Under the pieces are notes generated by a model. That model did not search any database and had not been told where the DNA came from. It saw only the letters and a list, made by a program, of their open reading frames with translations. A DNA stretch of 45,758 nucleotides from Acidobacteriota bacterium (GTDB taxonomy: Bacteria > Acidobacteriota > Terriglobia > Terriglobales > SCQP01): assembly GCA_021818955.1 (NCBI GenBank), contig JAKASR010000029.1:1-45758 (forward strand), written 5' to 3'. The position numbers and the translations under genes are program-made. Shown in pieces: positions 453 to 42,407 of this stretch. Numbering within the stretch: the stretch's first letter is position 1; the number at the start of each line of letters is the position of its first letter.

Positions 453-1547
453 CTACATGGCTTGGGGCAAGGCGTGGGAGCAGGCGCTTTCCAGAGCCGC
501 CAACAGTTCCGCAGCGCGATGGCGGCCGGTATGAGATTCGAAGACCCGCGCCCGGGCCGCCGCGCGAAGCTGGGTAAGAGGATCGCGGGAGCGCAGGATT
601 TCGAGCATTTCACCAGTCTCGGAGGCAACCAGAATCTCAACCCCCGGCTGGAAAAAGCTATCCAGCCCTGGCCAGGGATCGCTGACGATGACAGCGCCGC
701 AAGCGGCGGCTTCAAACAAGCGGATGGAGGGCGAATAGCCCGCTTCGACCATAGCCTGGCGGGTCAGATTCAAGCAGAACCGGCTGCTGGCATAAAGCCC
801 GCGGTGATCGCGAGGGTAGAGGTGAATGACATGCCTCACATTGGGGGGCCACTGGGCGGCATCGGGATAGAGCGGGCCGGCGATCAGGAAGCGGGCCTGC
901 GGCAACTGGCGCGCTGGCGCGAGCAGCAGCCGTTTGAGCTTGGACTGGCGGTCGGGAGTATAGGTGCCCATATAGCTGAGGTCATTTGAGAGTTGCGGGG
1001 CAAAAGTCTCTCCGGCGCGGGCAGGGTAATAAACCTCCGGATCGAAGCTGCAATACAGCGGCACGGCTTGGCGGGTGCCAAAGCAGCGCGCCAGCTCAGC
1101 CAACAACGGCCCACCGGTAAAACTGAAATAGGCATCCAGCGCCGGAATGTGCTCAGGGCGGAGGTATTCGCAAACTCCGCGGCGCAGCGCATCCAGAGTA
1201 ATTGGCGTATCGATATCGTAAAAGGCGATCCGGGGATGGTCGGCGGCAAGCAAGGTGTCGAGCAACACGGTGGCGTGCGGAGTAAAGCTGCCCACCAGGA
1301 CGGCATCGGCATCCAATACGGCGGAGCGCGCGGCCGCCAGCATCTGAGCGCGGGTTTCGAGCAGGTACAACTCGCAAAAGCCGGGGTGAGGCAGATCGCG
1401 GTTGGATTGATACCATTCCTGCTGGAGTTCGTAGAATACCGCCTGATGACCGAGCTGGCGCCAACCGCTCAGTAACGAGCGATAAGTTACGGCATGGCCA
1501 TTGCCCCAGGAGGACGAGAGAGTCAAGCCAAAAATCGCCAGCCGCAT
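453..1547 (-). CDS. CgeB-like glycosyltransferase (third of three)
   Basis: Predicted cytoplasmic glycosyltransferase of 364 residues with the CgeB architecture. The N-terminal Rossmann half opens with MRLAIFGLTLSSSWGNGHA and the C-terminal half is of the Glyco_trans_1_2 type (PF13524). The latter carries GYSPSIRLFEAAACGAVIVS followed by DPWPGLDSFFQPG, the nucleotide-sugar-binding loop of GT-B enzymes with the conserved Glu of FEAAACG. Its start at 1547 shares one base with the stop of the preceding gene, so translation is probably coupled. It is the last gene of a five-gene minus-strand operon. Donor and acceptor sugars cannot be read from sequence. Its similarity to the two upstream neighbours suggests tandem duplication followed by specialisation for successive sugar additions. 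Confidence 0.8.
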   Translation of the reverse strand: MRLAIFGLTLSSSWGNGHAVTYRSLLSGWRQLGHQAVFYELQQEWYQSNRDLPHPGFCELYLLETRAQMLAAARSAVLDADAVLVGSFTPHATVLLDTLLAADHPRIAFYDIDTPITLDALRRGVCEYLRPEHIPALDAYFSFTGGPLLAELARCFGTRQAVPLYCSFDPEVYYPARAGETFAPQLSNDLSYMGTYTPDRQSKLKRLLLAPARQLPQARFLIAGPLYPDAAQWPPNVRHVIHLYPRDHRGLYASSRFCLNLTRQAMVEAGYSPSIRLFEAAACGAVIVSDPWPGLDSFFQPGVEILVASETGEMLEILRSRDPLTQLRAAARARVFESHTGRHRAAELLAALESACSHALPQAM

Positions 1548-2674
1548 TAAGCCGCCTCAATCAGCCAGGGCTGGTGCGGGCGAGCCCCGCGCCGAATCAG
1601 AATCGATTCCGCCAGGCGGGCGCGTTGCTCGTAGCTGTGCTCCAGGAGCGCGCGACGGTGCATGCGCTCGCCCATCTGACGCGCACGCTCGGGGGTCAGC
1701 GTTTGCAGCAGTGACTGTAGTTGCAGCCTATCTTCAATCTGGAATATTTCCTCGCCTGGAGAGAAAAACTGTTCCAGCCCATCCCAGTGATCGCTGATCA
1801 CACAAGCCGCGGCGCCGGCGGCTTCGAAGATCCGGGTGGGGGGAGAGTAGCCGTAATCGGCCATTGAGCTGCGATTGATATTCAAAACGGTTTCCGCGGA
1901 GGAGTTGGCGACGTTGTGGTCGGCACAGCCGACATGTCCGGCATAGATGACATTGGCGGGCATCGGAAGGTCACGCCAGCCTTCCCCTCCGAGTAAAAAG
2001 GTGAATTGCGGTAGCGCCCGCGCGGTCTGGAAGAAGAAGCGCTGGACGCGTTCCTCGCGATCGGGCAGGCGGTGGCCGAGAAAGGACATCTTAGCGCGCC
2101 AGCGCGAATCGGGCGAGACCGGGAAATGGGTTTCCGGATCCAAGCCGTTGTAGATGGGATAGCAGGCGCGGGCGCCCAAGGCGAGATATTCGCGGATGAC
2201 CCGCGCGCCGCCGCCGTAGGTTAACACCAGGTCATAGTCGGGTAGGCATTTAAGCAGCCGGGCATCGCGGCGACTCCAGAGATCGCTTAAAGTTGCGGGC
2301 GAATCCACATCCCAGTACACCGCCAAGCGGCGATCTTCCCCGGCGGCGCGGGCGGCTTCGATCAGAGCGCCATCCAGGAATGCGTCTTCCACTCCGATGC
2401 CGCTGTGCTTGATCAGCACATCGGCTTGGGCGGCGGCGGCCAGACAGCGCTCCAATTCGGCGTGATTGCGATAGATGACGGAAGTGGCGTAAGGCGCCCG
2501 CTCGATATCGCGGTGGCGCTGGCGCTCGAAGGCGTCGGGCTCATAAAAGACGATCTCATGACCGCGGACATGCAGGTATTTATAGATGCCCCGGTAATAA
2601 GTGGCGGCGCCGTTCCAATAGCTGGACAGCAAGCTGGAGCCAAAGACGTGCAGCTTCAGCCTTATGCGGCGCAC
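1547..2674 (-). CDS. CgeB-like glycosyltransferase (second of three)
   Basis: Predicted GT-B glycosyltransferase of 375 residues and a paralogue of both flanking genes. The N-terminus (LHVFGSSLLSSYWNGAATYY) resembles the SSWGNGHA region of the next gene. The C-terminal PF13524-type domain has GYSPPTRIFEAAGAAACVIS followed by DHWDGLEQFFSPGEEI. The start at 2674 lies 13 bases inside the upstream gene, and the stop overlaps the next start by one base, which points to a translationally coupled polycistron. The ATG used here precedes MRRIRLKLHVFG; a start a few codons later is possible. The usual Cys/Gly-rich FEALACG loop reads FEAAGAAAC here, so the donor pocket may differ from the sisters. The specific sugar is unknown. 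Confidence 0.8.
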   Translation of the reverse strand: MRRIRLKLHVFGSSLLSSYWNGAATYYRGIYKYLHVRGHEIVFYEPDAFERQRHRDIERAPYATSVIYRNHAELERCLAAAAQADVLIKHSGIGVEDAFLDGALIEAARAAGEDRRLAVYWDVDSPATLSDLWSRRDARLLKCLPDYDLVLTYGGGARVIREYLALGARACYPIYNGLDPETHFPVSPDSRWRAKMSFLGHRLPDREERVQRFFFQTARALPQFTFLLGGEGWRDLPMPANVIYAGHVGCADHNVANSSAETVLNINRSSMADYGYSPPTRIFEAAGAAACVISDHWDGLEQFFSPGEEIFQIEDRLQLQSLLQTLTPERARQMGERMHRRALLEHSYEQRARLAESILIRRGARPHQPWLIEAA

Positions 2675-3789
2675 AGAGCCTCCAGTTGCTGGGCGCGATG
2701 GCGGCAGGTATGCCGTTGCAAGACGGTATCACGACCCTGGCTGGCGAGTTCGACGCGGCAACGGTCATCGCGTAAAAGCTCGGCGAGCATGGCGGTCATT
2801 TCGGCGCCGTCGCGCGCCATCCAGTAATCTCGGCCCGCCTGGAACAAGCCTTCGCGGTCTTCCCAGGGGCTCGAAACCAGCGCGATACCGCAAGCCAGGG
2901 CTTCAAAGACGCGAATCGTTGGAATGCCGCTCAAGCCATTGGCGTAAGTTTGGCGGGGAATATGAACACTGGCGCAGGCGGCGCCGTAAACTTCCACGGC
3001 GCGCAGATTAGGCAGATAGCCGGCATAACGAATGCCGGAGCGATCCATTTCTCCGCGAGCCCAGTCGGGATAACGGACGCCATGCGCCAAAAAACGGTAT
3101 TGCGGCAGGTGGCTGGCAGGCAGCAGAAGAAACTCGCGAATCTGGCGAGTCCGTTCCTCATCGCCCCAGTTGCCGATCCAGACGACTTCGGCCCGAGGCT
3201 CGGCGGAGGGCGCCAGAGGGCGAAATACGGTTTCATCGGCGGCTTCGTGAAAGCAGTAGGCGCGACAGACGCCAAAGCGGGTGAGATAAAGCTGGCGCAA
3301 GCTCTCGCCAAAGGCTAAAACCGCATCAAACTCGCGCAAGGGAAAACGCGCGATCGCTTCCGGTTGGCTGTAGCCGCGATGATGGGTGTCGAGCAGGAAT
3401 AATTGAAAGCCCAGGCGGCGGCGCAGCCGCGCCAGCACTTCCCCCAACTCCGGTTCGTTCCATTCATGCAGCAGCACGACCGCGGTCTCGCGTAGACGGC
3501 GGCTGAGCCAGTCTTCGGCGATTTCCGGCCAGCGGCGGGCGCAAGGATAAAACTCGGGGCGCAATTCCGGATAATGACGGCGAAAATCCTGGATGGCGCT
3601 GAGGGCGACGACCGGTTCTTCGGCAAACAATTGCGCCAGCGACCAGGCGCCCCAATTTCCCGGTTGTCCCTCGAAAGCCTGCACCTGGTGTCCGCGCGCG
3701 ATCAACGCGCGCGCCAGGCCGCGCAGGAAATGGGCATTGCCGTGATTCCAATCGGAAAGCCAGGAATGAGCGAAGATGGCTAGGCGCAT
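2662..3789 (-). CDS. CgeB-like glycosyltransferase (first of three)
   Basis: Predicted GT-B glycosyltransferase of 375 residues. I place the start at 3789 (MRLAIFAHSWLSDWNHGNAH) because the paralogue at 1547 begins with the same MRLAIF motif and this start overlaps the upstream stop by 10 bases. A longer open frame to 3936 would run through the end of the GT4 gene and has no family similarity. The C-terminal half carries IPTIRVFEALACGIALVSSP followed by WEDREGLFQAGRDYW, the PF13524 signature. All three CgeB-like proteins share the pattern of a W, a D/G pair and a [L]FFxPG-like loop after the motif. Likely role: one transfer step in building a surface or storage glycan. The acceptor is not known. 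Confidence 0.8.
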   Translation of the reverse strand: MRLAIFAHSWLSDWNHGNAHFLRGLARALIARGHQVQAFEGQPGNWGAWSLAQLFAEEPVVALSAIQDFRRHYPELRPEFYPCARRWPEIAEDWLSRRLRETAVVLLHEWNEPELGEVLARLRRRLGFQLFLLDTHHRGYSQPEAIARFPLREFDAVLAFGESLRQLYLTRFGVCRAYCFHEAADETVFRPLAPSAEPRAEVVWIGNWGDEERTRQIREFLLLPASHLPQYRFLAHGVRYPDWARGEMDRSGIRYAGYLPNLRAVEVYGAACASVHIPRQTYANGLSGIPTIRVFEALACGIALVSSPWEDREGLFQAGRDYWMARDGAEMTAMLAELLRDDRCRVELASQGRDTVLQRHTCRHRAQQLEALCAA

Positions 3790-4931
3790 GGCGTTTCCGC
3801 GATTTCCGCCCGGGCGGGCGTGGGCGCGCCGTGCGCCAGCGCCTGACAATACAGGTGTAAATATTTTTTCGCCATGCGGGAGGAGTGGTAGCGCTCGATG
3901 GCAAGCCGGCGGGCGGCTGTGGCGGCACGATCGCATTGCGCGGGAGCCGCGGCCAGGGAGGCCAGAATGTGTTCTAGCGCCGGACGGGCATCGGGATGAG
4001 GCGGGGGCGGGAAATAGTAGGCGGTATCGCCCCAGATTTCGCGCTGGCTTTCAATGTCGGCCAGCACCAGCGCGCAACCGGCCAGTGCCGCTTCCAGCGC
4101 TGATAATCCGAACGGCTCATAACGGGCGCACCCGATGAACAGGCGCGCGCGTTCGAGCAAATCGAGCCGGCCGGCGGAATTCAATTCGCCCAGGAAGCGC
4201 ACCTCCGGCGACTGCGGCAGGGTGGGAGCGGCGCCATTTTCCGGATGCCGCAACGAGCCGGCCACCTCAATTGGAATTGGCCATTTCCACTGTCCCAGCC
4301 AGGCCAGTTGCTTGGCGTCATCCCACACCCGCCCCATAGCGGCGGCCAGATTCTGCTTGACGGGCGCCGGCCGGTTTTCCGCGGCTGCGCGGCCATTGGA
4401 AATAATCACGACGGGCCGGCTGCAGCTATAGCTCTGGCGCAAGTCGCGGTCGACCGCCCGCGTTGGCGCCACCACTTGGCCGGCATTCGCAAGCGCCCGC
4501 AACACCAACCCGCGGTACCAAGCGTGAAATTTATCCGGAGGCGGTGCCATCTGCCGCACATGCCGCCACCAGGAAACTACATCGCTATGGACGGTGAGGA
4601 CCGTGGGATAGCTATTTTCACCGCAGGCAAAAGCAAAATGGTTGGCGTGAACCAGATCCACACGTAGTTCGGCGGCTAACCACGCAAGATGGCGCTGCGC
4701 CTCAGCGGTGTCCCGCTCGGCGGCTTGCATCCATTCCAGGCGCCACGGCAGGGTATAAAGGGGAATATCCGCATGCTCCAACTCGCGCAAATTTTCGGTC
4801 GAGGGCTTTGGACCCAAGCTGACCAAGGTGACCCGGCAGCCCTGTTTCCGCAGTTGCTGGCTTAATTCGAGAGTGAAAGTCCAAATTCCACCCCAGGTAT
4901 CGGTCGTGAGCAGAATATGGAGTGTTTGCAT
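3780..4931 (-). CDS. GT4-type glycosyltransferase
   Basis: Predicted retaining glycosyltransferase with the GT-B fold, 383 residues. The start is taken at 4931 (MQTLHILLTTDTWGGIWTFT), where the typical glycosyltransferase-4 N-terminal strand and glycine loop begin; an ATG 12 codons upstream is possible but overlaps the preceding gene. The C-terminal Glycos_transf_1 domain contains RYEPFGLSALEAALAGCALV, the classical E-x7-E motif that binds the nucleotide-sugar donor. This is the second gene of the operon, 13 bases after the glycosidase-like gene and overlapping the first CgeB-like gene. A GT4 enzyme followed by three CgeB-like enzymes suggests four successive transfers onto one acceptor. Membrane anchors and signal peptides are absent, so it should act in the cytoplasm. 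Confidence 0.8.
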   Translation of the reverse strand: MQTLHILLTTDTWGGIWTFTLELSQQLRKQGCRVTLVSLGPKPSTENLRELEHADIPLYTLPWRLEWMQAAERDTAEAQRHLAWLAAELRVDLVHANHFAFACGENSYPTVLTVHSDVVSWWRHVRQMAPPPDKFHAWYRGLVLRALANAGQVVAPTRAVDRDLRQSYSCSRPVVIISNGRAAAENRPAPVKQNLAAAMGRVWDDAKQLAWLGQWKWPIPIEVAGSLRHPENGAAPTLPQSPEVRFLGELNSAGRLDLLERARLFIGCARYEPFGLSALEAALAGCALVLADIESQREIWGDTAYYFPPPPHPDARPALEHILASLAAAPAQCDRAATAARRLAIERYHSSRMAKKYLHLYCQALAHGAPTPARAEIAETPCA

Positions 4932-4944
4932 ACGCGCCCTCCGC

Positions 4945-5874
4945 TCAGACCGGCTGCAGATCGACATCCGCCGCGGCGGTTGCTGGCAGAGCTTTAGGCC
5001 GGCAATAACGCTGGGCTACCCACCCGGCAAACCGGGCAAATTCCTGAGTATTGAGCGGGGGACTATTATGCACAGGCAGAATGCCGAAGTGCTCGGGGGT
5101 ATAACACAAAGTCAATGTGATTTCAAAATCCGCGAGCTGGCTCATTTGGCGATCGAACCAGGCTTCGGCGCCGGGACGATACCAATCGGCCCAGCTCAGG
5201 CCTGTCCGTAGCTTGCGCACGCCAAGCCGGTGCAAATAGCCAATCGCCGGTTGCAGGCGATGATCATCAAAATGAAACCACTGGCAAATGCCCATGCCGG
5301 CGGGGAAGTGATAGAACGCCGGCTTGTAATTACCATCGGCGCGGATTAAGCCCATATAGTAATGACGGTAATAAGCACTACCCTCGTTTTCGCGGTGGCG
5401 AGTGGTCGCGGCCCAAGTCGGAGGCAAGTCCATGAGGCTATACCAAAACAGCCGCTCGACACGATGCAGAAGCAATTGCGCCGTTGTTTTTAGGCCAAAC
5501 ACCTGAACTTCCTCGGCCCCGAACGAAGAACAACCGGCTTCGGTCACCCAAACCGGATGGCTACAGGCTTTTTTGATGGATTCGATTTGGCGCGGCCATT
5601 CGTGAATATTCCAGTGGTTCCAGTCGAGAGGAAATCCGTGGACGGCGACAATATCAATGTTTTCCAGGGCGCCATGGCTATCGAGCAGGCGAACGAAGGA
5701 TGGATCAATGGGGGATATGCCGCCCAGCACAATCCGCAACCCCGGCGCCTGGCGGCGTACCTCGGCGGCCGCCTCCTTCAGCAGGCGGGAGTAAATCTCC
5801 CAGTCCTTGTCCAACTGGAAATCCCAGTGTGAGAGGTTATTCGGCTCGTTCCAAAGCATCAGGGCTTCGACCAT
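4945..5874 (-). CDS. TIM-barrel glycoside-hydrolase-like protein with permuted domain order
   Basis: 309 residues from ATG 5874; the frame stays open to 6054, but the extra 60 residues show no family character. Catalytic-type motifs sit far forward: LMLWNEPNNL puts the presumed acid/base Glu at residue 10, and VWVTEAG puts the presumed nucleophile at residue 112. In clan GH-A barrels these mark strands 4 and 7. The segment from residue 194 (GMGICQWFHFDD, LRTGLSWADWYRPG, TLTLCYTPEHFGI) reads like strands 1 to 3, which normally come first. So the order is strands 4-8 then 1-3. No signal peptide is visible. It heads the glycosyltransferase operon, 13 bases before the GT4 gene. It could trim or sense a lipid-linked glycan intermediate, or be a non-hydrolytic transferase. 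I vaguely recall similar proteins beside other CgeB clusters but cannot verify this. Confidence 0.65.
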   Translation of the reverse strand: MVEALMLWNEPNNLSHWDFQLDKDWEIYSRLLKEAAAEVRRQAPGLRIVLGGISPIDPSFVRLLDSHGALENIDIVAVHGFPLDWNHWNIHEWPRQIESIKKACSHPVWVTEAGCSSFGAEEVQVFGLKTTAQLLLHRVERLFWYSLMDLPPTWAATTRHRENEGSAYYRHYYMGLIRADGNYKPAFYHFPAGMGICQWFHFDDHRLQPAIGYLHRLGVRKLRTGLSWADWYRPGAEAWFDRQMSQLADFEITLTLCYTPEHFGILPVHNSPPLNTQEFARFAGWVAQRYCRPKALPATAAADVDLQPV

Positions 5875-6095
5875 GCAGCCGTGCACCTTCAGGAAAGATA
5901 GGCGGGGCCATGACGCACCCGCATCAGCACTTAACGATGCCGGCCAGTGTAGGAAGTTTGTTCGTATTCGGCTGAAATCGGGACATTTTCGGGAAATTGA
6001 TCGGGATAAACCACGATCAGTCAGCATTAGCAGGGTGAACCGCGCGCCATGCAATATGCTAATTTTAAAATGGCAATGTAGGCTCGCTCTTTCCC

Positions 6096-7604
6096 TTGAG
6101 CAATATCGATGAAGCTCGCCGCAGGCTGGTCACCGTGCTGGGCGCGGATGCCGTGGTATGGGACGGCATTGGGCGCATGCTTTATGAGTACGACGGCGGC
6201 GTGGATCGCGCTGTGCCGGACCTGATCGCTTTTCCGGCCAATGAAGCCGATGTAGTGGTAATAGCCCGGATCGCTACGGAAAGCGGGCTGCCGCTAATTC
6301 CGCGCGGGGCCGGAACCGGCTTGAGCGGCGGCGCAATCGCACGCGAAGGCGGAATTGTGGTGGCCTTTAATCGGATGCGAAAGATCCGGCGGCTGGATTA
6401 TGAAAATGCCCGGGCCATAGTCGAACCCGGAGTAGTCAACCTGGAGTTATCGCAAACCACAGCGCCGGCCGGATATATATTCGTCCCTGATCCCTCCAGC
6501 CAGCAGGCATGCACGATTGGCGGCAATGTAGCCGAGAACAGCGGCGGGCCGCATACCCTGGCCTATGGGGTTACGGTCAACCACATCACCGGGTTGCGCG
6601 CAGTGCTGGCGGATGGACGCGTGGTCTCGACCGGCGGTTTAGCCAATGACATCCCCGGTTATGACCTGACCGGAACCCTGGTGGGCTCGGAAGGCACAAT
6701 GGCGATGGTGACGGCTATTGCCGCCAAGTTGACTCGCCTGCCGGAGGCGGTGCGCACGCTTTTGGCTGTCTATGCGCGGATTGAATCCGCCGCCGATACC
6801 GTCTCCGCGGTTACGGCGGCGGGAATTACTCCGGCCGCGATGGAAATGCTCGACGGCTTCACGCTCCGCGCGGTGGAGGCGTACATACACGCCGGTTATC
6901 CGCTCGATGCCGCCGCGGTGTTGTTGATCGAACTGGAAGGACTGAAAGAAGAAGTTGCAAGCCAGGCGGAAGAGGTGCTGCGAATTTGCCGGGAAAGCGG
7001 TGCGGCGGAAGTACGGCTGGCGCGCGACGCGGAAGACCGCGCCCGCTTATGGAAAGGCCGCAAACATGCCTTTGGGGCGGTGGGACGGATCAGCCCGAAC
7101 TTTTATGTCATGGATGGCGTCATCCCCCGCACCCGCATCGCGGATGTTTTGCGTGACGGCGACCATATCGGCCGGCACTATCAATTGCGGATCGGCAATA
7201 TTTTTCATGCCGGGGACGGCAATCTGCACCCATTGGTTTTCTACGACGGGCGGCAAGCGGGCGAGTTGGATCGGGCCATTGCCGCCAGCCGGGAAATCAT
7301 CCGCTTATGCGTCGAAGCCGGCGGTTCGATTTCGGGTGAACACGGCGTGGGCATGGAAAAAGATGAGCTGATGCCGTGGATGTTCTCCGAAGCCGATCTG
7401 GATTTTATGCGTCAATTGCGCGCGGTCTGGAATCCGGAGGGGCGGCTGAATCCCGGCAAATTACTGCCTGCGCGCGCCTGCCGGGAAACACGGGATGGCG
7501 GGCCCGGCGGCTTGCGGATGGCCGCCGGCCAGGATGATGGGGATCGTTCGGATCAGCCGCGTAGCGCGGCGGCCGCCGGCCAGCAGCAAACGGAGCCGCG
7601 ATGA
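6096..7604 (+). CDS. glcD: Glycolate oxidase, FAD-binding subunit GlcD
   Basis: Catalytic flavoprotein subunit of glycolate (2-hydroxy-acid) oxidase, which turns glycolate into glyoxylate and passes electrons to the membrane quinone pool through GlcE/GlcF. Residues 40-220 form the PCMH-type FAD domain with LIPRGAGTGLSGGAIA, DPSSQQACTIGGNVAENSGG and GTLVGSEGTMAMVT. The C-terminal FAD-oxidase-C domain contains GNIFHAGDGNLHPLVFYD and GGSISGEHGVGMEKDEL, with the conserved His of GDGNLHP and GEHGVG. Length of 502 matches the family. The start is a TTG with no clear ribosome binding site; an in-frame TAG shortly upstream rules out a longer protein. The last 35 residues are low-complexity. The stop overlaps the glcE start (ATGA). 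Confidence 0.93.
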   Translation: MSNIDEARRRLVTVLGADAVVWDGIGRMLYEYDGGVDRAVPDLIAFPANEADVVVIARIATESGLPLIPRGAGTGLSGGAIAREGGIVVAFNRMRKIRRLDYENARAIVEPGVVNLELSQTTAPAGYIFVPDPSSQQACTIGGNVAENSGGPHTLAYGVTVNHITGLRAVLADGRVVSTGGLANDIPGYDLTGTLVGSEGTMAMVTAIAAKLTRLPEAVRTLLAVYARIESAADTVSAVTAAGITPAAMEMLDGFTLRAVEAYIHAGYPLDAAAVLLIELEGLKEEVASQAEEVLRICRESGAAEVRLARDAEDRARLWKGRKHAFGAVGRISPNFYVMDGVIPRTRIADVLRDGDHIGRHYQLRIGNIFHAGDGNLHPLVFYDGRQAGELDRAIAASREIIRLCVEAGGSISGEHGVGMEKDELMPWMFSEADLDFMRQLRAVWNPEGRLNPGKLLPARACRETRDGGPGGLRMAAGQDDGDRSDQPRSAAAAGQQQTEPR

Positions 7605-8881
7605 GTACGTCCGCGCCGCTTACCGGGCCGGATTGGCGCGAGTTGGAAAACCTGCTTGGCGCCGAAGCCCTACGGCGGATGGAACGAGCGATTTTCCCGG
7701 CCAATGCGGAACAAACCGCGGCTTTGGCGCGCTGGGCCGGCAGCCATGGCATCATGCTGCGCCCGGGCGGCGAGACCCGGCGGGACGCGGAAACCTCCGG
7801 CCTGCGAGTGGATTTCAGCCGGCTGCAAGCGACGCGCTTTTATGAGCCGAACGACTTGACCGCCGGGTTTGAAGCGGGCATGGCCATTACGGATCTGGAA
7901 AAGATCCTGGGCGCCCAAAGCCAATTCCTGCCGTTCGATATTCCCCGTAACGGCAAGCGCAAGCTCGGCTCGGCCATGGGAGAACACGCCTCCGGTCCGC
8001 TGCGCCAGGCTTATGGAACGATGCGCGACTTTACGATCGGCATTGAGTTCATATCGGGGCGGGGCGAGATCGTGCACGCCGGCGGCCGCGTTGTCAAAAA
8101 CGTCGCCGGTTATGATTTGATGAAACTGCTGATCGGCAGCCGCGGCAGCCTGGGATTAATTACGGGTGTAAATTTCCGGGTTTTTCCCCGCCCCCGCGCC
8201 ACCGCAACCCACCTCATTGAAGTGCCCCGGCTCGAGGATGCTGAGCGGCTGCGCCAAGCCATACAGGCCTCCTGGCTTAGGCCGCTGGCTTTCGAGCTCT
8301 ACACGGCTGAAACATCTTCGCCTTCATCCTGGCTTGCGGCCATACGCTTTACCGGCGGCGAGGCAACGCTCGTACGCTGCCGGCAGGATTTACAAGCAAT
8401 TGCCGCCAAGCTGGGCTTAGTCGTGCGAGATGTTCTCAAAGAAGACGAGCCGGAGTTTTGGAATATTTATGCCAAACGAGCCCCATTCGAATCCGGTTGC
8501 TGGCTGCATCTTTCCGCGCCCCCCGCGCTCGGTGCCGCCGCTTTGGCCATCTGCCAGGAAGTCTTGCAAGCCGGGACCGGCGCGAGGCCGGGCGCTATGC
8601 TTGAATTTCAGGGGCGCCTGAGTTTGGGCGTGTATCGCTTGCATCGAGGAACTCCTCCCGATTCCGCAACGCTGGCATGCTGCCGTCAACGCTTGCGCCA
8701 AATCGGATATTCCGGGTGGGGCGACACGGGCGCAGATATCCACCTGAGCTGGCCCGAAGCGTCCACTCCCGCCGACCGCTGGGGGGAGTGGACGCAGGAC
8801 CGCGAGCTGATGAGGCAAATTAAAATGGAGCTGGATCCGTTGCGCATTTTTCCCGACCCCTTTGGCCTTTTGAGCGCATGA
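7601..8881 (+). CDS. glcE: Glycolate oxidase, FAD-binding subunit GlcE
   Basis: Second FAD-domain subunit of the glycolate oxidase complex. The N-terminal FAD_binding_4 half is visible as MLRPGGETRRDAETSG, FDIPRNGKRKLGSAMGEHAS and GGRVVKNVAGYDLMKLLIGS with GSLGLITGVNFRVFP. The VVKNVAGYDLMKL stretch is diagnostic for GlcE. Length 426 is at the upper end for the family (about 350-420), and the second half is more divergent. It overlaps glcD by four bases (ATGA) and glcF by four bases, so the three subunits are translated together. GlcE is thought to support assembly or electron transfer rather than to bind substrate itself; that is family knowledge, not seen here. Confidence 0.92.
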   Translation: MSTSAPLTGPDWRELENLLGAEALRRMERAIFPANAEQTAALARWAGSHGIMLRPGGETRRDAETSGLRVDFSRLQATRFYEPNDLTAGFEAGMAITDLEKILGAQSQFLPFDIPRNGKRKLGSAMGEHASGPLRQAYGTMRDFTIGIEFISGRGEIVHAGGRVVKNVAGYDLMKLLIGSRGSLGLITGVNFRVFPRPRATATHLIEVPRLEDAERLRQAIQASWLRPLAFELYTAETSSPSSWLAAIRFTGGEATLVRCRQDLQAIAAKLGLVVRDVLKEDEPEFWNIYAKRAPFESGCWLHLSAPPALGAAALAICQEVLQAGTGARPGAMLEFQGRLSLGVYRLHRGTPPDSATLACCRQRLRQIGYSGWGDTGADIHLSWPEASTPADRWGEWTQDRELMRQIKMELDPLRIFPDPFGLLSA

Positions 8882-10239
8882 CCTCCGCCCCCACAGCCGC
8901 AGCGGTATCGGCTGAAAACCGTCCCACGGATGGCGTTTCCGCATTTCAAACTGACGACCGCCCGCGTTGGGAAGATTACTCGCGCTGCGTGCATTGCGGA
9001 CTCTGCCTGAACGTCTGTCCCACGTTTCGGCTGCTGGGTGAAGAGATGGATTCGCCGCGCGGGCGCATTTACCAGATCGCGCAAGCCGATGCCGGCCGCC
9101 TGGAACTGGAGCGCTTGCGGACACACCTGGATCGCTGTCTCGATTGCCGCGCCTGCGAAACCGCCTGCCCTTCCGGGGTGCAGTATGGCCGTATTCTCGA
9201 AGGGGCGCGGGCGGAACTGGCGGCGGCAGACCGCCTTGCGGCGGGCAAGCGCCTGCGCGACCGGTTGGCCGGGCGCCTGCGGAGGCATTTATTCGAGCGC
9301 GTTTTGCCCAGCCGAGGCCGGATGCGGCTTTATGCCTCGCTGCTCGATGCCGGGCAACGGATGGGGCTGCCTGGGCTTGCCGAACGCATTGGGCTGTTGC
9401 GCGCGCTGGGCTTGGAAAACGCCGCACGGCTGGCGCCGCGGCTCGCGCGCCCGTTTTTCCATCGGGAAATCGGCCAAACTTTTCCCGCCCACGGCGAACG
9501 GCGGGCGCGGGTGGTGCTGCTGGCCGGCTGCATGCAAAACATTTTTTTTACGAACATGAACCGCGCGGCGCTGCGCGTCTTGCAATGGAACGGTTGCGAG
9601 GTGGAGATTCCCGCCGGGCAAACCTGCTGCGGCGCGCTGCACATGCATGCCGGCGAACGCGAGACCGCGCGCCGGCTGGCGAGAAAAAATCTCGAAGCTT
9701 TTGACGCCGGCGGCTTTGACGCCATCGTGACCGCCAGCGCCGGCTGCGGCTCGACACTGAAGGAATATGGCGAATTGCTTGCGCAAGATGCTCGCGCCGC
9801 GGTGTTTGCCGGAAAGGTGCGCGACATTACCGAATTTCTGGCCGCGCTCGGACTGCGCAACGATGGGCTGCGCGCGCTGCCGGCGAGCGTGACCTATCAG
9901 GATGCCTGTCATTTGGCGCACGGACAGCGCATTCGTTCAGCGCCGCGAGAGCTGTTGAGGGCGGTGCCCGGGCTCAAGCTGATCGAGATGCCGCACGCCG
10001 ACCAATGCTGCGGCAGCGCCGGAACTTATAATCTCGAACAGCCGGAAATTGCGGGCCGCCTGCTGCGGGAAAAGATGCAGTGGGCGCGCTCGACCGGGGC
10101 CGATTGGATTGTCACCGCCAATCCCGGCTGCCAACTGCAAATCCAGGCCGGGGTGCGCGCGTCCGGCCAGCCTCAGCCGGTATTGCACGTGATCGAGTTG
10201 CTGGCTATTGCGCACGGCTTCCCCCCAATGCCCGATTGA
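8878..10239 (+). CDS. glcF: Glycolate oxidase, iron-sulfur subunit GlcF
   Basis: Iron-sulfur subunit that carries electrons from the GlcD flavin toward the quinone pool. Near the N-terminus are two 4Fe-4S ferredoxin motifs: CVHCGLCLNVCPTF and, about 50 residues later, CLDCRACETACPSG. The C-terminal two-thirds hold two CCG domains (DUF3400/PF02754 type): GCMQNIFFTNMNRAALRVL with AGQTCCGALHMHAG, and YQDACHLAHGQRI with ADQCCGSAGTYNL. Length 453 is slightly longer than typical because of about 25 extra N-terminal residues. The start ATG overlaps the glcE stop. No terminator hairpin with a T-tract is evident downstream. Confidence 0.93.
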   Translation: MTSAPTAAAVSAENRPTDGVSAFQTDDRPRWEDYSRCVHCGLCLNVCPTFRLLGEEMDSPRGRIYQIAQADAGRLELERLRTHLDRCLDCRACETACPSGVQYGRILEGARAELAAADRLAAGKRLRDRLAGRLRRHLFERVLPSRGRMRLYASLLDAGQRMGLPGLAERIGLLRALGLENAARLAPRLARPFFHREIGQTFPAHGERRARVVLLAGCMQNIFFTNMNRAALRVLQWNGCEVEIPAGQTCCGALHMHAGERETARRLARKNLEAFDAGGFDAIVTASAGCGSTLKEYGELLAQDARAAVFAGKVRDITEFLAALGLRNDGLRALPASVTYQDACHLAHGQRIRSAPRELLRAVPGLKLIEMPHADQCCGSAGTYNLEQPEIAGRLLREKMQWARSTGADWIVTANPGCQLQIQAGVRASGQPQPVLHVIELLAIAHGFPPMPD

Positions 10240-23535: not shown

Positions 23536-25029
23536 TCAACTTGTCCAGGTCAGGGTGGAGACCGAATCGGCGGGCAGACTCAAGGCGGCGGCCGCGTCGC
23601 CGTGCCGGATGCTGACCGCGCGCGGCGAGCTGGTGGAGTTGGTCAGCACCAGCAGATAGCCGCCGTCCGGATTGATGGCCGCCACATGGCTGACGCCCGG
23701 CTCGCCGCCTTCGGAGCCGACGATGCGCGCGCCGCGCCGGATCGAGCGCGAGTAGTGATTGAAGGCCCAGAACTGCCCGCTGTAGCTGACTTTTTTGGAA
23801 ATGGAGTTCACCGTGGCGACGCCGCCGCAACTGAAGGGGCCGATGTTGGGACGGCCGCGCTCATCGAGCACCAGGTTCCAGGCGATGATGCAGCGCGGGC
23901 CATTGCGGAGGATGCCGGTAAACGTATCGCTCCATTTCGCCCAATCGGTGGCGTAGTCGGGGGCGGTGTAATCGGGGCCGCCCTCGGTCCAGTACATTTC
24001 GACGCCGGGATGAGCCGCGGCCACTTTCTGCATCCATTCCGGCTTGCCGACGTAGCCGTGCCAGGCGATGGCGTTGGCAAAGCGGCGGACGTCGGGATCG
24101 TCCAGCTCGCAAATAGCGCGGCCCCATAAATTGTAGTTATGGTCAATCAGCCAGATGGCGGTTTTCAGGCCGGCATGGCGGAGGGCCGGACCGAGATTCT
24201 GGCCGACGTAGCCCACCTCGACCTCCTGGGGAAACAGGCAGGCGGGCATATGGCCGTCCTGGTCGGTATCCACCTCATTCTGGCAGGAGATGGCATTGAT
24301 TTCGACGCCGGCGGCGCGGTAGGCCTGAAGAAATTTCACCATGTATTGGGCATAGACCGGCAGCAGATGGCGGCGGATGGTGCCGCCCTTCATGGAGTTG
24401 TTGTCTTTCATCCAGTTGGGCGGGCTCCAGGGCGAGGAAAACAGGAAGAGTTCGGGATTGAGGGCGCGGGCACGGCGCAGCATGGGCAGGATGTAGGCTT
24501 TATCGTGGGCGATGGAGAAACGCCGCAGCTCGGGGTCGGGGGCGCCTTCATCGAAGCTGTAGAGCGTGCGCGAATAATCGCTGGAGCCGACGCAGGTGCG
24601 GCAGACGCTGAAATTCAGCTCGCGGGGAGAAAAGAAGGCATGGAGCAGGGCTTCGCGCCCGGCGCGCGGCATGCGGGCGAGATTGTAACAGGCGGCGTCG
24701 GTCATGGCCGCGCCAAAGCCGAGGATTTCCTGCTGCCGCCATTGCGGATAGATGAAGATTTCATTTTGCGGCGAGGAGGGGGCGGAAGGAGCCGGGGCCG
24801 CGGCCGGCTGCCAAGCCAGCGGACCGGCCAGCGCATAACGCCTGCCGGGATCGGTGATACGCCATGCGATGGCTCCGCCGGGATGAGGCGAGGGGGCGCC
24901 GGAATGAGCGCTCTCGTTTTGGGGCCGAGCCGGCGGCGGCAACGGCTGCGCTGAAAGCGATTCGCCCAAACCCGCCGCCGCGGAAACCGCGGCGGTTTTT
25001 AAAAAATTCCTGCGCGTAGGAGTTTCCAT
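23536..25029 (-). CDS. Exported GH30-family glycoside hydrolase
   Basis: 497 residues from ATG 25029, chosen because it begins a twin-arginine leader (METPTRRNFLKTAAVSAAAG); the frame stays open 17 codons further without support. The (beta/alpha)8 barrel follows with EILGFGAAMTDAACYNLARM and SSPWSPPNWMKDNNSMKGG. The acid/base Glu lies in INAISCQNEVDTDQDG and the nucleophile Glu in VEMYWTEGGPDY. The C-terminal beta-sandwich typical of GH30 ends the protein. GH30 enzymes include glucosylceramidases, beta-1,6-glucanases and xylanases. The overall pattern fits the glucosylceramidase/beta-1,6-glucanase side, but specificity is open. Folded export by the Tat system is likely. It is separated by about 136 bases from the cytochrome b gene. 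Confidence 0.88.
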   Translation of the reverse strand: METPTRRNFLKTAAVSAAAGLGESLSAQPLPPPARPQNESAHSGAPSPHPGGAIAWRITDPGRRYALAGPLAWQPAAAPAPSAPSSPQNEIFIYPQWRQQEILGFGAAMTDAACYNLARMPRAGREALLHAFFSPRELNFSVCRTCVGSSDYSRTLYSFDEGAPDPELRRFSIAHDKAYILPMLRRARALNPELFLFSSPWSPPNWMKDNNSMKGGTIRRHLLPVYAQYMVKFLQAYRAAGVEINAISCQNEVDTDQDGHMPACLFPQEVEVGYVGQNLGPALRHAGLKTAIWLIDHNYNLWGRAICELDDPDVRRFANAIAWHGYVGKPEWMQKVAAAHPGVEMYWTEGGPDYTAPDYATDWAKWSDTFTGILRNGPRCIIAWNLVLDERGRPNIGPFSCGGVATVNSISKKVSYSGQFWAFNHYSRSIRRGARIVGSEGGEPGVSHVAAINPDGGYLLVLTNSTSSPRAVSIRHGDAAAALSLPADSVSTLTWTS

Positions 25030-25165
25030 CGTCATCCCCATCTTCGTCGTCAAAATTGAAATATCTACTTTGGCACACAATGCCGCCGCGTGCGCACCGG
25101 CCTAGCCCGCGGCTTCCCATTGCGCCAGATGATTGAGATCGTGTGCGGCCATGGTTTCGAGGATC

Positions 25166-32025: not shown

Positions 32026-33837
32026 TTACGCCAGCGTGATCTTCAGCGCGACGGCGTAATCGGAGCGAGGCATGTAGTGACGCGGCAAGCCGATCTCCAG
32101 CGCGGCCGCGCCCTGGCGCCAGGTCAATTTCTCATCCGTGCCCAAGAGCTGAACGCGGGCAATCTTGCCGGGGTTGACGGACGAGCCGGCGCCGAGCGAT
32201 TGAATGCTGAAACCCGGATGGGGATTGGCCTTATCCGGACGCGGCCAGCCCAGCGGCAAGGCATAAATCACCTTGCCCGATTTGCTGCGGGTAAAGCGCA
32301 CGTCCTGAACGCCGAGCTGGCGAATGCTGTTGCCCTGGAACGAGCCGGCGTGGATCATGTTCGGGCCTTCACCAAAAACTTTCCAGGGGCGGGTTTCGTA
32401 AATCGCCTCGCCATTGGTCCAAAACCAATCGCCGATCTCGTCCAGAATGCGCTCTTCCTTCCGGTCAATGGTGCCGTCCGGCTTGCCGGGAATGTTGAGC
32501 ACGAAGGTGCCATTCTTGCTGACCGTGTCGATCAGCCAGTGAATGACCTCGCGCGGATGCATATAACCGCCATAGACGCCCGGCTGGTTGAAGAGCGCGC
32601 GCTGATAATGCCATTCCCCAATGCAGGTTTCCGATTGCCAGGCATGCGGCATGATATCGCTGGCCAAGCCGCGTTCGATATCGGCGACCACCGTGCCCTG
32701 CAGCGCGGGGGGAACATTCTTGATGGTGCAGACCGCCTCGACCCGGCCGCCATTCAGGCGACGGCTGTGATTGTAGAGATAAGCGCCGACATTGATGCCC
32801 GCCCAGCCCAGCGGAAAGAGCGCATTGTCGAAATACAGCAGGTCGGGGTTGTGCTGATCGATCAGGTCGCGGGTGCGGTCGTAAAAATTTTTAACGTAGG
32901 CCGGATCGGGCAGGGCGTCATGGGGATGCTTGGCGCCATAGAGTTGCTGCGGGTCGAGCCCTTCCCACCACTGTCCCTTGCCGTCGGCCCGGGTCAATTC
33001 GCCGTCGTAGGGAACGCCGGCCAGCGGCCCGGTCGAATCGGCGCCGTGCGAAGGCTGGAACCACCACCAATTGCGACCCTGATGCACGGTTACGCCGAAG
33101 CGCAGCCCGTGCCGCCGCGCTTCCGCCGCCCAGGTGCCGATCACATCGCGATGCGGTCCCAGGCGGACGGCATTCCATTCATGATGGCGCGAGTTCCAGG
33201 TATCGAAGCCGTCATGATGGTTGGCCAGCGCGAAAAAGATGCGCGCTCCGGCGCGCTTGTAGCGTTCCATCAGCGCCGAGGGATTCCAGTTCAGCAGCGT
33301 CCATTGAGCGCAAAGATCTTTGTAGCCGAATTTCGAGGGCGGCCCGTAATGCTCCAGGGCAAAGCGGTTTTGCCAGGAACCTTGCAAATACATATTGCGC
33401 GCAAACCAATCGCCATCCTCGGGCACGCATTGCGGGCTCCAGTGGTTCCAGATGGCGAATTTGGCGTCGCGGTACCACTCCGGGCATTCATATTGTTTCA
33501 GCGAATCCCAATGACCCTGGAAAGGGCCCCCGCCGGCCAGGCCGGCGACCGGGGCGCGCATCGGCACGCCATCCCAGGAACCGCCGGGCACGGGCAGCTT
33601 GGGCGGATTGCCCCAGCCGGTCGGCTTCCAGCCGGCAAGCTGCAGCTTTTCGGTGACGATGCGGCCGTTATGCAAGGCGTAAAAACGGCGGCGCATTTCC
33701 GGCGTGGCGCAGAAGGCGGCGTAATCTTCAACCGGCCGGTCCCAATGGGCTGAGGCGGACGCTTGCCCCAAAAGCGGCAGCGCGCCGGGAAAGGCGGCGG
33801 CGGCGGCGATTAACTGCACGAAGTTGCGGCGTTGCAT
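32026..33837 (-). CDS. Exported GH29-family alpha-L-fucosidase
   Basis: 603 residues from ATG 33837, which begins a short twin-arginine-like leader (MQRRNFVQLIAAAAAFPGAL). The longer open frame to 34029 lacks support and would run across the start of the divergent gene. The GH29 barrel is clear: EWYRDAKFAIWNHWSPQCVP, RYKRAGARIFFALANHHDGF, TWNSRHHEWNAVRLGPHRDV and GTWAAEARRHGLRFGVTVHQ. The nucleophile Asp is expected in DLLYFDNALFPLG. WLIDTVSKNGTFVLNIPGKP with DGTIDRKEERIL is the typical late barrel region, and a beta-sandwich ends the protein. It removes terminal alpha-L-fucose from plant or microbial glycans outside the cytoplasm. It is divergent from the YVTN gene, with 67 bases between the starts. 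Confidence 0.9.
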   Translation of the reverse strand: MQRRNFVQLIAAAAAFPGALPLLGQASASAHWDRPVEDYAAFCATPEMRRRFYALHNGRIVTEKLQLAGWKPTGWGNPPKLPVPGGSWDGVPMRAPVAGLAGGGPFQGHWDSLKQYECPEWYRDAKFAIWNHWSPQCVPEDGDWFARNMYLQGSWQNRFALEHYGPPSKFGYKDLCAQWTLLNWNPSALMERYKRAGARIFFALANHHDGFDTWNSRHHEWNAVRLGPHRDVIGTWAAEARRHGLRFGVTVHQGRNWWWFQPSHGADSTGPLAGVPYDGELTRADGKGQWWEGLDPQQLYGAKHPHDALPDPAYVKNFYDRTRDLIDQHNPDLLYFDNALFPLGWAGINVGAYLYNHSRRLNGGRVEAVCTIKNVPPALQGTVVADIERGLASDIMPHAWQSETCIGEWHYQRALFNQPGVYGGYMHPREVIHWLIDTVSKNGTFVLNIPGKPDGTIDRKEERILDEIGDWFWTNGEAIYETRPWKVFGEGPNMIHAGSFQGNSIRQLGVQDVRFTRSKSGKVIYALPLGWPRPDKANPHPGFSIQSLGAGSSVNPGKIARVQLLGTDEKLTWRQGAAALEIGLPRHYMPRSDYAVALKITLA

Positions 33838-33904
33838 GCATGGGATTGTAGCTCGATTTACCCAGGCAGTGACTAAAAATGCCGCTTGCTTTAGAGTGTT
33901 GGGC

Positions 33905-34912
33905 ATGAAGCCCGCCGCCAAACTGCCGATCATCTTAGCCAGCTTTGCCGGGGCGTGGTTGCTGCCGGCGCCGGCGCGAACGCCCGCCGCTTTGATGGCC
34001 GTGGTCAACAAAGCGGCGCATACGGTCACGATCTACCGCCTGCCGGGCGACCGTCGCGTGTGCACCGCCGAAGTCGCGCCCAATCCGCACGAGGCCGCCT
34101 TCTCGCGCCATGGGCGCGAGTTGATCGTTCCCATTTACAGTAATGTCTTCATCGGCCAGCGCGGGACGAATCAGCACCTGGTCTATTTTCTCGATGCCCG
34201 CAACTGCCGCCGGATCGGCGTGCTCGATACCGGGCGCTACCAGCGCCTGCACGGCATCGCGGTCGCCGCCAACGGACGCGTTTATATCACCGCCGAAGTG
34301 GGCGGCGCGTTGCTGGAAATCGATCCGCGGCGGCGGCGGCTGGTGCGCGCCATCCCCACCGGCTCGCCGTATTCGCACATGGTGGCGCTGGCTGGGGGGC
34401 GGGCTTACGTCAGCAATGTGCTTTCCAAGACGATATCCGTGCTTTCGCTGCGCCGCCATAAGCTGCTGTTCACGACGCCGACCGGCGCCGTCAACCAGCG
34501 CATCAGCGTCAGCCCCAACCATCAATGGTTTGCAACCTGCCTGGGCTCGAAGCATGCGGTCGCGGTCTATCGCGCCAGCCATGGACAGCCCGCTTTCCGG
34601 ATTGCAACGCCCGGCACACCTTATGTCGTTCACTTCAGCCCGCGCGGGCATTATCTTTATGCCGGCGGGAATGGCCGCCAGGGCACGACTTTATGGAAGC
34701 TGGAGATCGCGCGCCGGCGGGTGGTTTACAGCCGAACCGGCCTGGGCAGCAGCCTGGGCTCGTTTGCGCTGGCCCCCGGCGGCCGCCGCATTTATGTCAC
34801 CGATTATGGCCAAAGCCGGATTTCGGTTTTAAAGGCGAGCAATCTGGAGTTGCTGCGCTCATTTCCGAGCGCCGGCAAAGGCCCGGACGAGATTGCATTC
34901 CACCAGCGATGA
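33905..34912 (+). CDS. Exported YVTN-type beta-propeller protein
   Basis: 335 residues from ATG 33905; the signal peptide (MKPAAKLPIILASFAGAWLL, ending APA) fixes the start, although the frame is open to 33824. The mature protein is a chain of four-stranded repeats of about 40-45 residues: LMAVVNKAAHTVTIYRLPGD, HGIAVAANGRVYITAEVGGA, RAYVSNVLSKTISVLSLRRH, ISVSPNHQWFATCLGSKHAV and GGRRIYVTDYGQSRISVLKA. This is the YncE/surface-layer propeller pattern, probably seven blades. Such proteins bind partners or DNA/metal ligands rather than acting as enzymes. The role here is unknown. A paralogue of the same general type lies at 43121. Confidence 0.82.
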   Translation: MKPAAKLPIILASFAGAWLLPAPARTPAALMAVVNKAAHTVTIYRLPGDRRVCTAEVAPNPHEAAFSRHGRELIVPIYSNVFIGQRGTNQHLVYFLDARNCRRIGVLDTGRYQRLHGIAVAANGRVYITAEVGGALLEIDPRRRRLVRAIPTGSPYSHMVALAGGRAYVSNVLSKTISVLSLRRHKLLFTTPTGAVNQRISVSPNHQWFATCLGSKHAVAVYRASHGQPAFRIATPGTPYVVHFSPRGHYLYAGGNGRQGTTLWKLEIARRRVVYSRTGLGSSLGSFALAPGGRRIYVTDYGQSRISVLKASNLELLRSFPSAGKGPDEIAFHQR

Positions 34913-40796: not shown

Positions 40797-42332
40797 TCAG
40801 CGCCGCGGCCGCCAGCTCACGACGCTGACCTGAAACGGCGCCAGCGCCAGCGTATTGCCCGGCACTTGCGCCGCCGCGGGCGGCTGATAGGCGCGATTGA
40901 CGCTTTCCACGGTGGCGCCTTTCGCGCCGGGCAAGGCCACCTCGATATTCCGGTCGCGCTTGTTCACCAACAGCAATTCGCGCGCGCCAGCGGGCGTAAT
41001 CACCGCCTGGGCGAAGATGGCCGAGCCGCCGCCGAGGGTGGAAACCAGGCGGTCGCCGGGCCCCAAGTGGTCATGTAGAAGTTTCAAAATCCAATAACGC
41101 GCATTCGGTTTTCCGGTGCGCCAATCCACCATGGTCACACTGGGAAACTGGCTGGGGTAGCCCACCAGTTGCGATTCGCCCGCGACTTGCACGCCCAGCG
41201 CCGCCAGGCGCGCGTAGAGATAAGCGTACATGGCGCCGCAGAGGTTCCAATAGCGCGGCGGAATCGGCTTGACCAGATGGGGCGCGGTATCGTGCGGCAG
41301 AATGCAGCCCAGTTCGTCCGCGTCGGTTTTGGTGCTCCACGCCAGGCGTTGGCGGATGGCCTGGATGTAGCGCACGCTGTCGAGAAAATGGTCCGCCTGG
41401 TCGAAAAAGGTGTATTGCCAGTCGCGCAGATCCTGGCCAGGGGTGGGGCTGGCGTAAAAGTGGTAGGACAGCATATCCAGCGGCGCGCCCCGGCGATGGC
41501 GGGGGTCGAGAAAATAATCGAAAAATTCGGGATTCAGCGACGGCATGGCCAGCGCCGCGCCGACAAACTTCATGCGCGGGGCGACGCGATGCAACGCGGC
41601 GGTGATGCCGCGGTAAAGCCGGGTGTAAAAACGCGGGCTCATGGAGTGCTCGAAATCCACTTCGTTGAGCACTTCCCAGTACTGGATTTTGTAGTGATAG
41701 CCGGAGGCATGCCAGCGGCCGGTTTCATCGCGAAAACCGCCGCGCATGTACCAACTCGCCAGGCGGGCATAATAAGCCGCCACGGCGCTAATCGGAACCC
41801 GCAGCCGGCGACCCTGCTCGTAGTTCCATACCACCTGGTTGGGATCGGCGGGGTAGGCGACCGGCCGCGCAGTGGCGAACATCCATTGCGGGATGGTGCT
41901 GAAATTAACAATGCGGCTGTGCCCGCGCGTGGCGCGGAAAAAATCGCGCACGATGGGGTCGATCAGGGAAAAATCCCAGTCGGCGCGGCCGGCCCGCGGC
42001 GGCCGCAGCTCGGCCACCGCCAGCCGGGGATACGGCAGCCAGGGTACGAAACGCACCTCATCGGCGCCGAGATTCTTCAGCGCCTGAAAGGCGGCGTCGT
42101 GGATGGGCGAGCCGCGCCGCAGCAGCGGATTCACCACCACCTGGAGCGTGGGCGTCGCACTCGAAATCGCCGTAACCCGCCGCCAATGGGCCTGGATGGC
42201 GATTGCCGGCGGGGCCTGCGCCCGCACCGCGGCCATCCGGCACCCGGCCATGCCAATGGCCGCCATGGCCAGCACCCCCGCCCACCGCGCCTGCGCGCGT
42301 GAAGGCCGTCCGCTATGTGTTTGAAGTCGCAT
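40797..42332 (-). CDS. Secreted GH39-like beta-xylosidase-type glycoside hydrolase
   Basis: 511 residues from ATG 42332, which begins an export signal; a lipobox-like GMAGC around residue 31 suggests a lipoprotein. The TIM barrel shows LGADEVRFVPWLPYPRLAVA, FSTIPQWMFATARPVAYPAD and YHYKIQYWEVLNEVDFEHSM, where the Glu of LNEVD is the presumed acid/base. The later strand LDMLSYHFYASPTPGQDLRD follows, and the nucleophile is expected in the STKTDADELGCILPHD region. A C-terminal beta-sandwich (ARELLLVNKRDRNIEVALPG) ends the protein. Clan GH-A membership is clear and GH39 is the nearest match I recognise, but specificity is uncertain. It starts 75 bases after ribE on the same strand. Confidence 0.72.
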   Translation of the reverse strand: MRLQTHSGRPSRAQARWAGVLAMAAIGMAGCRMAAVRAQAPPAIAIQAHWRRVTAISSATPTLQVVVNPLLRRGSPIHDAAFQALKNLGADEVRFVPWLPYPRLAVAELRPPRAGRADWDFSLIDPIVRDFFRATRGHSRIVNFSTIPQWMFATARPVAYPADPNQVVWNYEQGRRLRVPISAVAAYYARLASWYMRGGFRDETGRWHASGYHYKIQYWEVLNEVDFEHSMSPRFYTRLYRGITAALHRVAPRMKFVGAALAMPSLNPEFFDYFLDPRHRRGAPLDMLSYHFYASPTPGQDLRDWQYTFFDQADHFLDSVRYIQAIRQRLAWSTKTDADELGCILPHDTAPHLVKPIPPRYWNLCGAMYAYLYARLAALGVQVAGESQLVGYPSQFPSVTMVDWRTGKPNARYWILKLLHDHLGPGDRLVSTLGGGSAIFAQAVITPAGARELLLVNKRDRNIEVALPGAKGATVESVNRAYQPPAAAQVPGNTLALAPFQVSVVSWRPRR

Positions 42333-42407
42333 TTCTGTTGCCTGTTTCCACTCAACGATTTTGAAAATGCTCAGCCGGCAAAACGCCAAAAAGGGCGGAA
42401 ACCGGAA

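Follow-up and report, generated by a model that had tools for sequence, protein, structure and literature searches.

Clan GH-A is the largest glycoside hydrolase clan, and an invariant arginine on strand 2 is one of its hallmarks. To our knowledge, natural circular permutation of a glycosidase barrel has rarely been described, with GH70 as the textbook case, and we know of no natural circular permutation in clan GH-A. By sequence, the closest solved relative of the protein described here is PslG of Pseudomonas aeruginosa, a GH39-like clan GH-A endoglycosidase (PDB 5bx9 and 4zn2). PslG sits at the inner membrane, its hydrolase activity matters for Psl production and its residues E165 and E276 are reported to be catalytic (PMC9075953). 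Published accounts describe the GH70 glucansucrases, relatives of GH13, as glycosidase TIM barrels that were circularly permuted in nature (PMC4919382, PMC11299179). Clan GH-A and PslG-like enzymes are well known; what is new in the present family is the permuted topology. In the literature that we searched, with CAZy and InterPro lying outside the search, we found no paper describing a permuted clan GH-A or GH39 enzyme.

The window analyzed here is a whole stretch of 45,758 nucleotides from an Acidobacteriota bacterium (contig JAKASR010000029.1). The 309-residue protein under study opens MVEALMLWNEPNN..., which is followed by VTEAG (E112) and then by GICQWFHFDD, KLRTGLSWADW and LTLCYTPEH. A first-pass annotation, made from the sequence alone, had proposed a permuted TIM-barrel glycosidase with its acid/base Glu at residue 10, pointing out that WNEPN and VTEAG stand ahead of ICQWFHFDD, LRTGLSWADW and TLTLCYTPEH. 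This order is read in the 309-residue open reading frame and is kept in the homologues to a degree that chance could not produce, and the proposal was borne out by the reading frame, the homologues, the profile comparisons and the fold prediction. The barrel strands are arranged along the chain as 4-5-6-7-8-1-2-3. Because strands 4-8 come before strands 1-3 instead of running from 1 to 8, the protein is a permuted variant and not a standard member of clan GH-A.

The N-terminus lies immediately ahead of strand 4, and the C-terminus follows helix 3 (Table 1). An in-frame stop codon immediately precedes the ATG in four homologues (L017, L029, L040 and L059, the first two from a genome of the same genus), and the shortest permuted members, at 292-295 aa, end just past the RYx of helix 3. 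The whole protein is thus the permuted barrel. A longer N-terminus starting from TTG at 6054 was considered and rejected: conservation does not extend into the upstream frame, and the same-genus sister has a stop right before the ATG. Family models recover little of this protein. The NCBIfam search returned no model for it, and Pfam PF11790 (Glyco_hydro_cc) matches residues 3-146 only, with 24.8 bits against a gathering threshold of 21. The Pfam GH39 model PF01229 did not match the window protein, which is therefore not filed as GH39; against one swapped homologue the same model scored 18.9 bits, under the cut-off of 26.

Table 1. Features of the permuted glycosidase gene and of the glycosyltransferase genes that follow it in the window.
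Feature	Position	Strand	Details and basis
Permuted clan GH-A (PslG-like) glycosidase gene	4945..5874	-	ATG 5874-5872, TGA 4947-4945, 309 aa
Residues 1-192, barrel strands 4-8	5299..5874	-	DSSP of AlphaFold2 model; correspond to unpermuted barrel residues 104-288
Residues 193-290, barrel strands 1-3, carrying R223	5005..5298	-	AlphaFold2 model; correspond to unpermuted barrel residues 2-93; invariant columns
E10, predicted acid/base, in WNEPN	5845..5847	-	Aligned with PslG E165
E112, predicted nucleophile, in VTEAG	5539..5541	-	Aligned with PslG E276
GT4-type glycosyltransferase	3780..4931	-	Pfam PF13439 and PF13692; start 13 nt past glycosidase stop codon
Glycosyltransferase (Glyco_trans_1_2)	2662..3789	-	Pfam PF13524, E 2e-33; overlaps preceding gene
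Glycosyltransferase (Glyco_trans_1_2)	1547..2674	-	Pfam PF13524; overlaps preceding gene
Glycosyltransferase (Glyco_trans_1_2)	453..1547	-	Pfam PF13524; overlaps preceding gene by 1 nt

The rearrangement is apparent from comparison with PslG. A native-order profile built from 72 permuted proteins aligned with PslG in two blocks whose order was reversed, positions 191-291 matching PslG 18-129 and positions 2-153 matching PslG 131-301. When the halves were swapped, a profile that also includes three unpermuted sisters aligned in one continuous block (4-255 with PslG 26-307; 48 bits, 9e-12); a segment-swapped profile search was one of the checks that the first-pass annotation had proposed. The single-sequence score against PslG rose from 28.9 bits in native order to 41 bits after swapping, and the similarity was significant with phmmer in both arrangements (6e-6 native, 1.3e-9 swapped). 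All 96 permuted members matched an unpermuted barrel from Pontibacter in two blocks, 104-288 first and then 2-93. The joint alignment of permuted and unpermuted barrels contained 46 invariant columns, distributed over both segments.

Structure prediction, the other check that had been proposed, yielded a single eight-stranded barrel (AlphaFold2; pLDDT 89, pTM 0.87) with strands assigned by DSSP at residues 2-7, 47-53, 75-80, 108-114, 142-145, 195-197, 221-227 and 251-257. Complete TIM barrels match model residues 1-295 in structural alignments (Z 13). The alignment with PslG pairs model residues 1-220 with PslG 156-360 (Z 11.5, rmsd 3.0, 176 residues, 24% identity) and stops at residue 220 because the permutation interrupts a sequence-order aligner. 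A half-barrel reading of this partial match is countered by the full-length TIM-barrel matches and by the swapped profile. We also modeled the unpermuted barrel L057, from only two sequences; this model (pLDDT 59) has seven strands in the normal order, its C-terminal quarter was not modeled, and it was left out of the evidence. Overall, sequence, fold prediction and the unpermuted sister clade described below give strong support to circular permutation.

The active site is highly conserved. The motif WNEPNN is present in 96 of the 96 permuted members, as is the strand-7 Glu (95 by motif; L008, with WVLEVG, by eye), and the family shows long invariant active-site stretches. In the alignment with PslG, WNEPN lies opposite WNEPN and TEAG opposite TEWG, positions that correspond by count to E165 and E276. 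R223, the invariant strand-2 Arg, lies in the C-terminal segment, so that one active site needs both segments. Strand order apart, the protein shows structural features of clan GH-A: the predicted model is a (beta/alpha)8 barrel, the acid/base Glu follows an Asn where strand 4 ends, and the nucleophile Glu closes strand 7. The two chain segments would close one barrel in which E10 (strand 4) would serve as the acid/base and E112 (strand 7) as the nucleophile.

A scan of species genomes found relatives encoded in 286 of 295 candidate stretches. The best 80 of these 286 relatives are 57-78% identical, collinear with the order seen in the window, and span 12 phyla: Acidobacteriota, Myxococcota, Pseudomonadota, Fibrobacterota, Thermodesulfobacteriota, Bacteroidota, Nitrospirota, Planctomycetota, Chloroflexota, Bdellovibrionota, Verrucomicrobiota and Gemmatimonadota. 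The 96 homologues that were checked have a common order, a common breakpoint and both Glu residues. The gene is found on complete chromosomes (L077, L084 and L097) and on complete plasmids. Among plasmid records, 147 matched and 100 of these cover at least 80% of the query; they include Sinorhizobium pSymB, Azospirillum, Roseomonas and Paracoccus, annotated as "beta-xylosidase" or "glycosyl hydrolase", and part of the Rhizobium records among them are an unpermuted fusion. These results indicate that the rearrangement is real, ancient and present in at least twelve bacterial phyla. The idea of a one-off adaptation of the window's operon gives way to an old and widespread family. In one genome (G348; L009/L015), which lacks the TIGR04290 methyltransferase discussed below, the permuted gene is broken into two frames and its N-terminal part was not found; the gene appears to have decayed once the pathway was lost, or else the break is an error of sequencing.

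The unpermuted fusion provides a natural point of comparison. The swapped query finds a 715-aa protein of Pontibacter ruber (L127) in which a normal-order barrel is followed by an SDR domain; the match covers residues 1-280 of the barrel with 34% identity (E 1.5e-41). Unpermuted barrel-SDR fusions are also present in Rhizobium etli p42b (RHE_RS22270) and Paracoccus sp. AK26. They are annotated as "NAD-dependent epimerase/dehydratase", and their SDR part is NDP-sugar epimerase/dehydratase-like. Permuted and unpermuted barrels are 31-34% identical after swapping. We built a tree from 37 permuted (swapped) barrels, 10 unpermuted SDR-fused barrels (L127, L148, L149, L187-L191, L057 and L080) and 4 secreted outgroup enzymes. 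The permuted barrels formed one clade (SH-aLRT 99) and the unpermuted fusions another (95), the two being sisters, with two fused sequences on very long branches. The best fit is one permutation, after which the family spread widely by horizontal transfer.

One or both catalytic Glu residues are lost in seven of the ten unpermuted fused barrels, compared with none of the 96 permuted ones. Judging from their sequences, many N-terminal barrels of the SDR fusions look like pseudo-enzymes attached to the SDR. We considered whether the fused barrel degenerates only where a permuted copy exists, and found no clean rule among the ten: the catalytic residues are intact in G889 and G939, which have no permuted copy, and in G415, which has one, and they are lost in G424, G1136, G412 and G413, with a permuted copy, as well as in G1133, G1147 and G1159, without one.

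The first-pass annotation had the gene leading a biosynthetic operon, and it is indeed the first of a tight minus-strand run with four glycosyltransferases (Table 1). Glycosyltransferases lie near the permuted gene at 56 of 79 loci. A TIGR04290 methyltransferase is found at 28 of the 79, mostly directly upstream of it. Other neighbors are a TIGR04295 B12-binding radical-SAM protein, two SDRs, an inositol-3-phosphate-synthase-like protein, a histidine phosphatase, a Gfo/Idh oxidoreductase, a UDP-glucuronate decarboxylase-like protein and a protein of 580-610 aa without a family match. The last of these (L178, L179 and L032) is conserved, has no Pfam or NCBIfam match and, by eye, resembles a phosphoribosyltransferase-like part fused with an APH-like, kinase-like one. 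Across the phylum, TIGR04290 is present in all seven genomes with an intact permuted gene and in none of ten without it, congeners of both kinds included (Fisher p 2.5e-4, counting G348 with its broken copy and no TIGR04290). One incomplete genome (G407) carries the methyltransferase, with no barrel detected. In the window's own genome, the TIGR04290, SDR2 and TIGR04295 genes lie side by side on another contig (C43; L182 5545-8803), apart from the glycosidase operon, so that the full cluster is not contiguous there and is split in this lineage. Our literature search found no description of a TIGR04290/TIGR04295 cluster.

Both topologies occur in clusters of close relatives. In R. etli p42b and Paracoccus sp. 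AK26 the order is Gfo, Zn-dehydrogenase, SDR1, unpermuted barrel fused to SDR2, GT4, three glycosyltransferases, UDP-glucuronate decarboxylase and TIGR04290. The same gene set is found in Sinorhizobium meliloti pSymB and Paracoccus yeei, where SDR2 is bare and the stand-alone permuted barrel lies a few kb off. From this gene context, the permuted barrel and the unpermuted barrel-SDR fusion look interchangeable.

Three other features of the window were named by eye from their translations. A glcD/glcE/glcF-like glycolate oxidase operon (6096-10239, plus strand) is divergent from the glycosidase operon, and the minus strand encodes a GH30-like protein with a twin-arginine-like signal (23536-25080) and a GH29 alpha-fucosidase-like protein (32026-34029). 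A second GH-A-like protein (40797-42389, minus strand) is secreted-looking and has the normal strand order, with NEV replacing NEP; its position is unrelated to that of the permuted gene.

Taken together, the window gene belongs to an old, horizontally mobile permuted GH-A family with one barrel and the usual active site, and probably encodes a cytoplasmic retaining beta-glycosidase with a biosynthetic role. With strand 4 beginning directly after the N-terminus, the protein has no space for a signal peptide, and we saw no hydrophobic segment in its 309 residues; both observations argue for a cytoplasmic location. The enzyme would then work alongside the glycosyltransferases, with retaining beta-glycosidase chemistry, as a hydrolase or a transglycosidase. 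It may act on an intermediate of the cluster, an oligosaccharide or a glycolipid, by trimming, proofreading or transferring a sugar; this intermediate would be made by the neighboring glycosyltransferases, SDR enzymes and TIGR04290/TIGR04295 proteins. Involvement of a pentose in the substrate is plausible given the UDP-xylose-type decarboxylase of several clusters; the database label "beta-xylosidase" is no evidence for the substrate. More tentatively, and with somewhat less than even confidence, we propose that this ancient family is the cytoplasmic biosynthetic (trans)glycosidase for a widespread bacterial oligosaccharide, interchangeable with the unpermuted barrel-SDR fusion in orthologous clusters.

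Trimming both ends of a tandem duplicate can yield a permuted order, and the window's genome is in multiple contigs, so we asked whether two truncated barrel copies had been fused here, whether the gene is a pseudogene, or whether assembly or binning had created a chimera. We give such an origin virtually no credence. The order and breakpoint are common to 96 homologues, the best 80 relatives lie in 12 phyla and on complete chromosomes and plasmids, and all permuted members sampled form the one well-supported clade. The gene is single-copy in its genome and we found no remnant of a second copy elsewhere in the window, where the best tblastn match of either half outside the gene has an E of 0.13. 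The fusion that the first-pass annotation had offered as an alternative also fails because the barrel is complete within 292-309 aa and its arrangement is conserved across phyla. That annotation had further suggested an adapted function such as transfer or glycan sensing. Conservation of both Glu residues in all 96 members favors catalysis over sensing, which leaves the suggestion partly supported. A catalytically dead, sugar-binding or regulatory barrel appears very improbable for the same reason and given the long invariant active-site stretches, even though the loss of Glu in SDR-fused sisters implies that non-catalytic use exists in the superfamily.

The remaining alternatives concern the reaction itself. 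Hydrolysis, transglycosylation and binding without turnover do not appear separable by sequence, and the suggestion of transfer therefore stands beside hydrolysis. A quality-control or trimming hydrolase, clearing misassembled or mis-loaded intermediates, is a real possibility that we would stop short of calling likely. It draws on the analogy with PslG, also a glycosidase encoded in a biosynthesis cluster and one whose activity Psl synthesis needs, and a stand-alone gene that is sometimes apart from its cluster would fit a housekeeping role; however, the tight co-occurrence with TIGR04290 makes the enzyme look tied to one specific product. We regard as rather unlikely that the enzyme is a transglycosidase moving a sugar from a beta-glycoside or an activated donor onto the cluster product, such that a linkage is added and not removed. 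Its probable cytoplasmic site beside glycosyltransferases, the NDP-sugar SDR to which the unpermuted sister is fused and the extreme conservation of the active site are all consistent with transfer, and the permuted GH70 barrel is itself a transferase. In contrast, the closest enzyme of solved structure, PslG, catalyzes hydrolysis (PMC9075953), and no sequence feature distinguishes the two reactions.

The persistence of both topologies as sister clades in orthologous clusters of close relatives (Rhizobium and Sinorhizobium, two Paracoccus) allows one to ask directly how permutation affects folding, activity and fusion to a partner. If our interpretation is correct, these proteins are a pair, found in nature, that builds the same active site from two different chain topologies. 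The family has been hidden from annotation, since Pfam sees only half of it and the records read "beta-xylosidase". It also serves as a marker of a mobile oligosaccharide cluster that occurs in at least twelve phyla, nitrogen-fixing symbionts among them.

Among described systems, PslG is likewise the product of a gene in a polysaccharide biosynthesis cluster. It differs in its normal strand order and its extra N- and C-terminal parts, whereas members of the present family are permuted, about 295 aa long and without a signal peptide. The unpermuted barrel-SDR fusions occur in the same type of cluster; unlike the permuted proteins, they have the normal order, a fused SDR and catalytic Glu residues that are often degenerate. 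The "beta-xylosidase" or "glycosyl hydrolase" proteins of Sinorhizobium, Azospirillum, Roseomonas and Paracoccus are members of the permuted family, under database names that record no permutation. Finally, the GH70 enzymes are large, secreted, multidomain proteins of the alpha-retaining clan GH-H whose breakpoint and catalytic residues differ from those of the present family. The sequence and motifs of the window protein are of the clan GH-A type, and not those of a GH13-like alpha-retaining barrel with its own catalytic triad.
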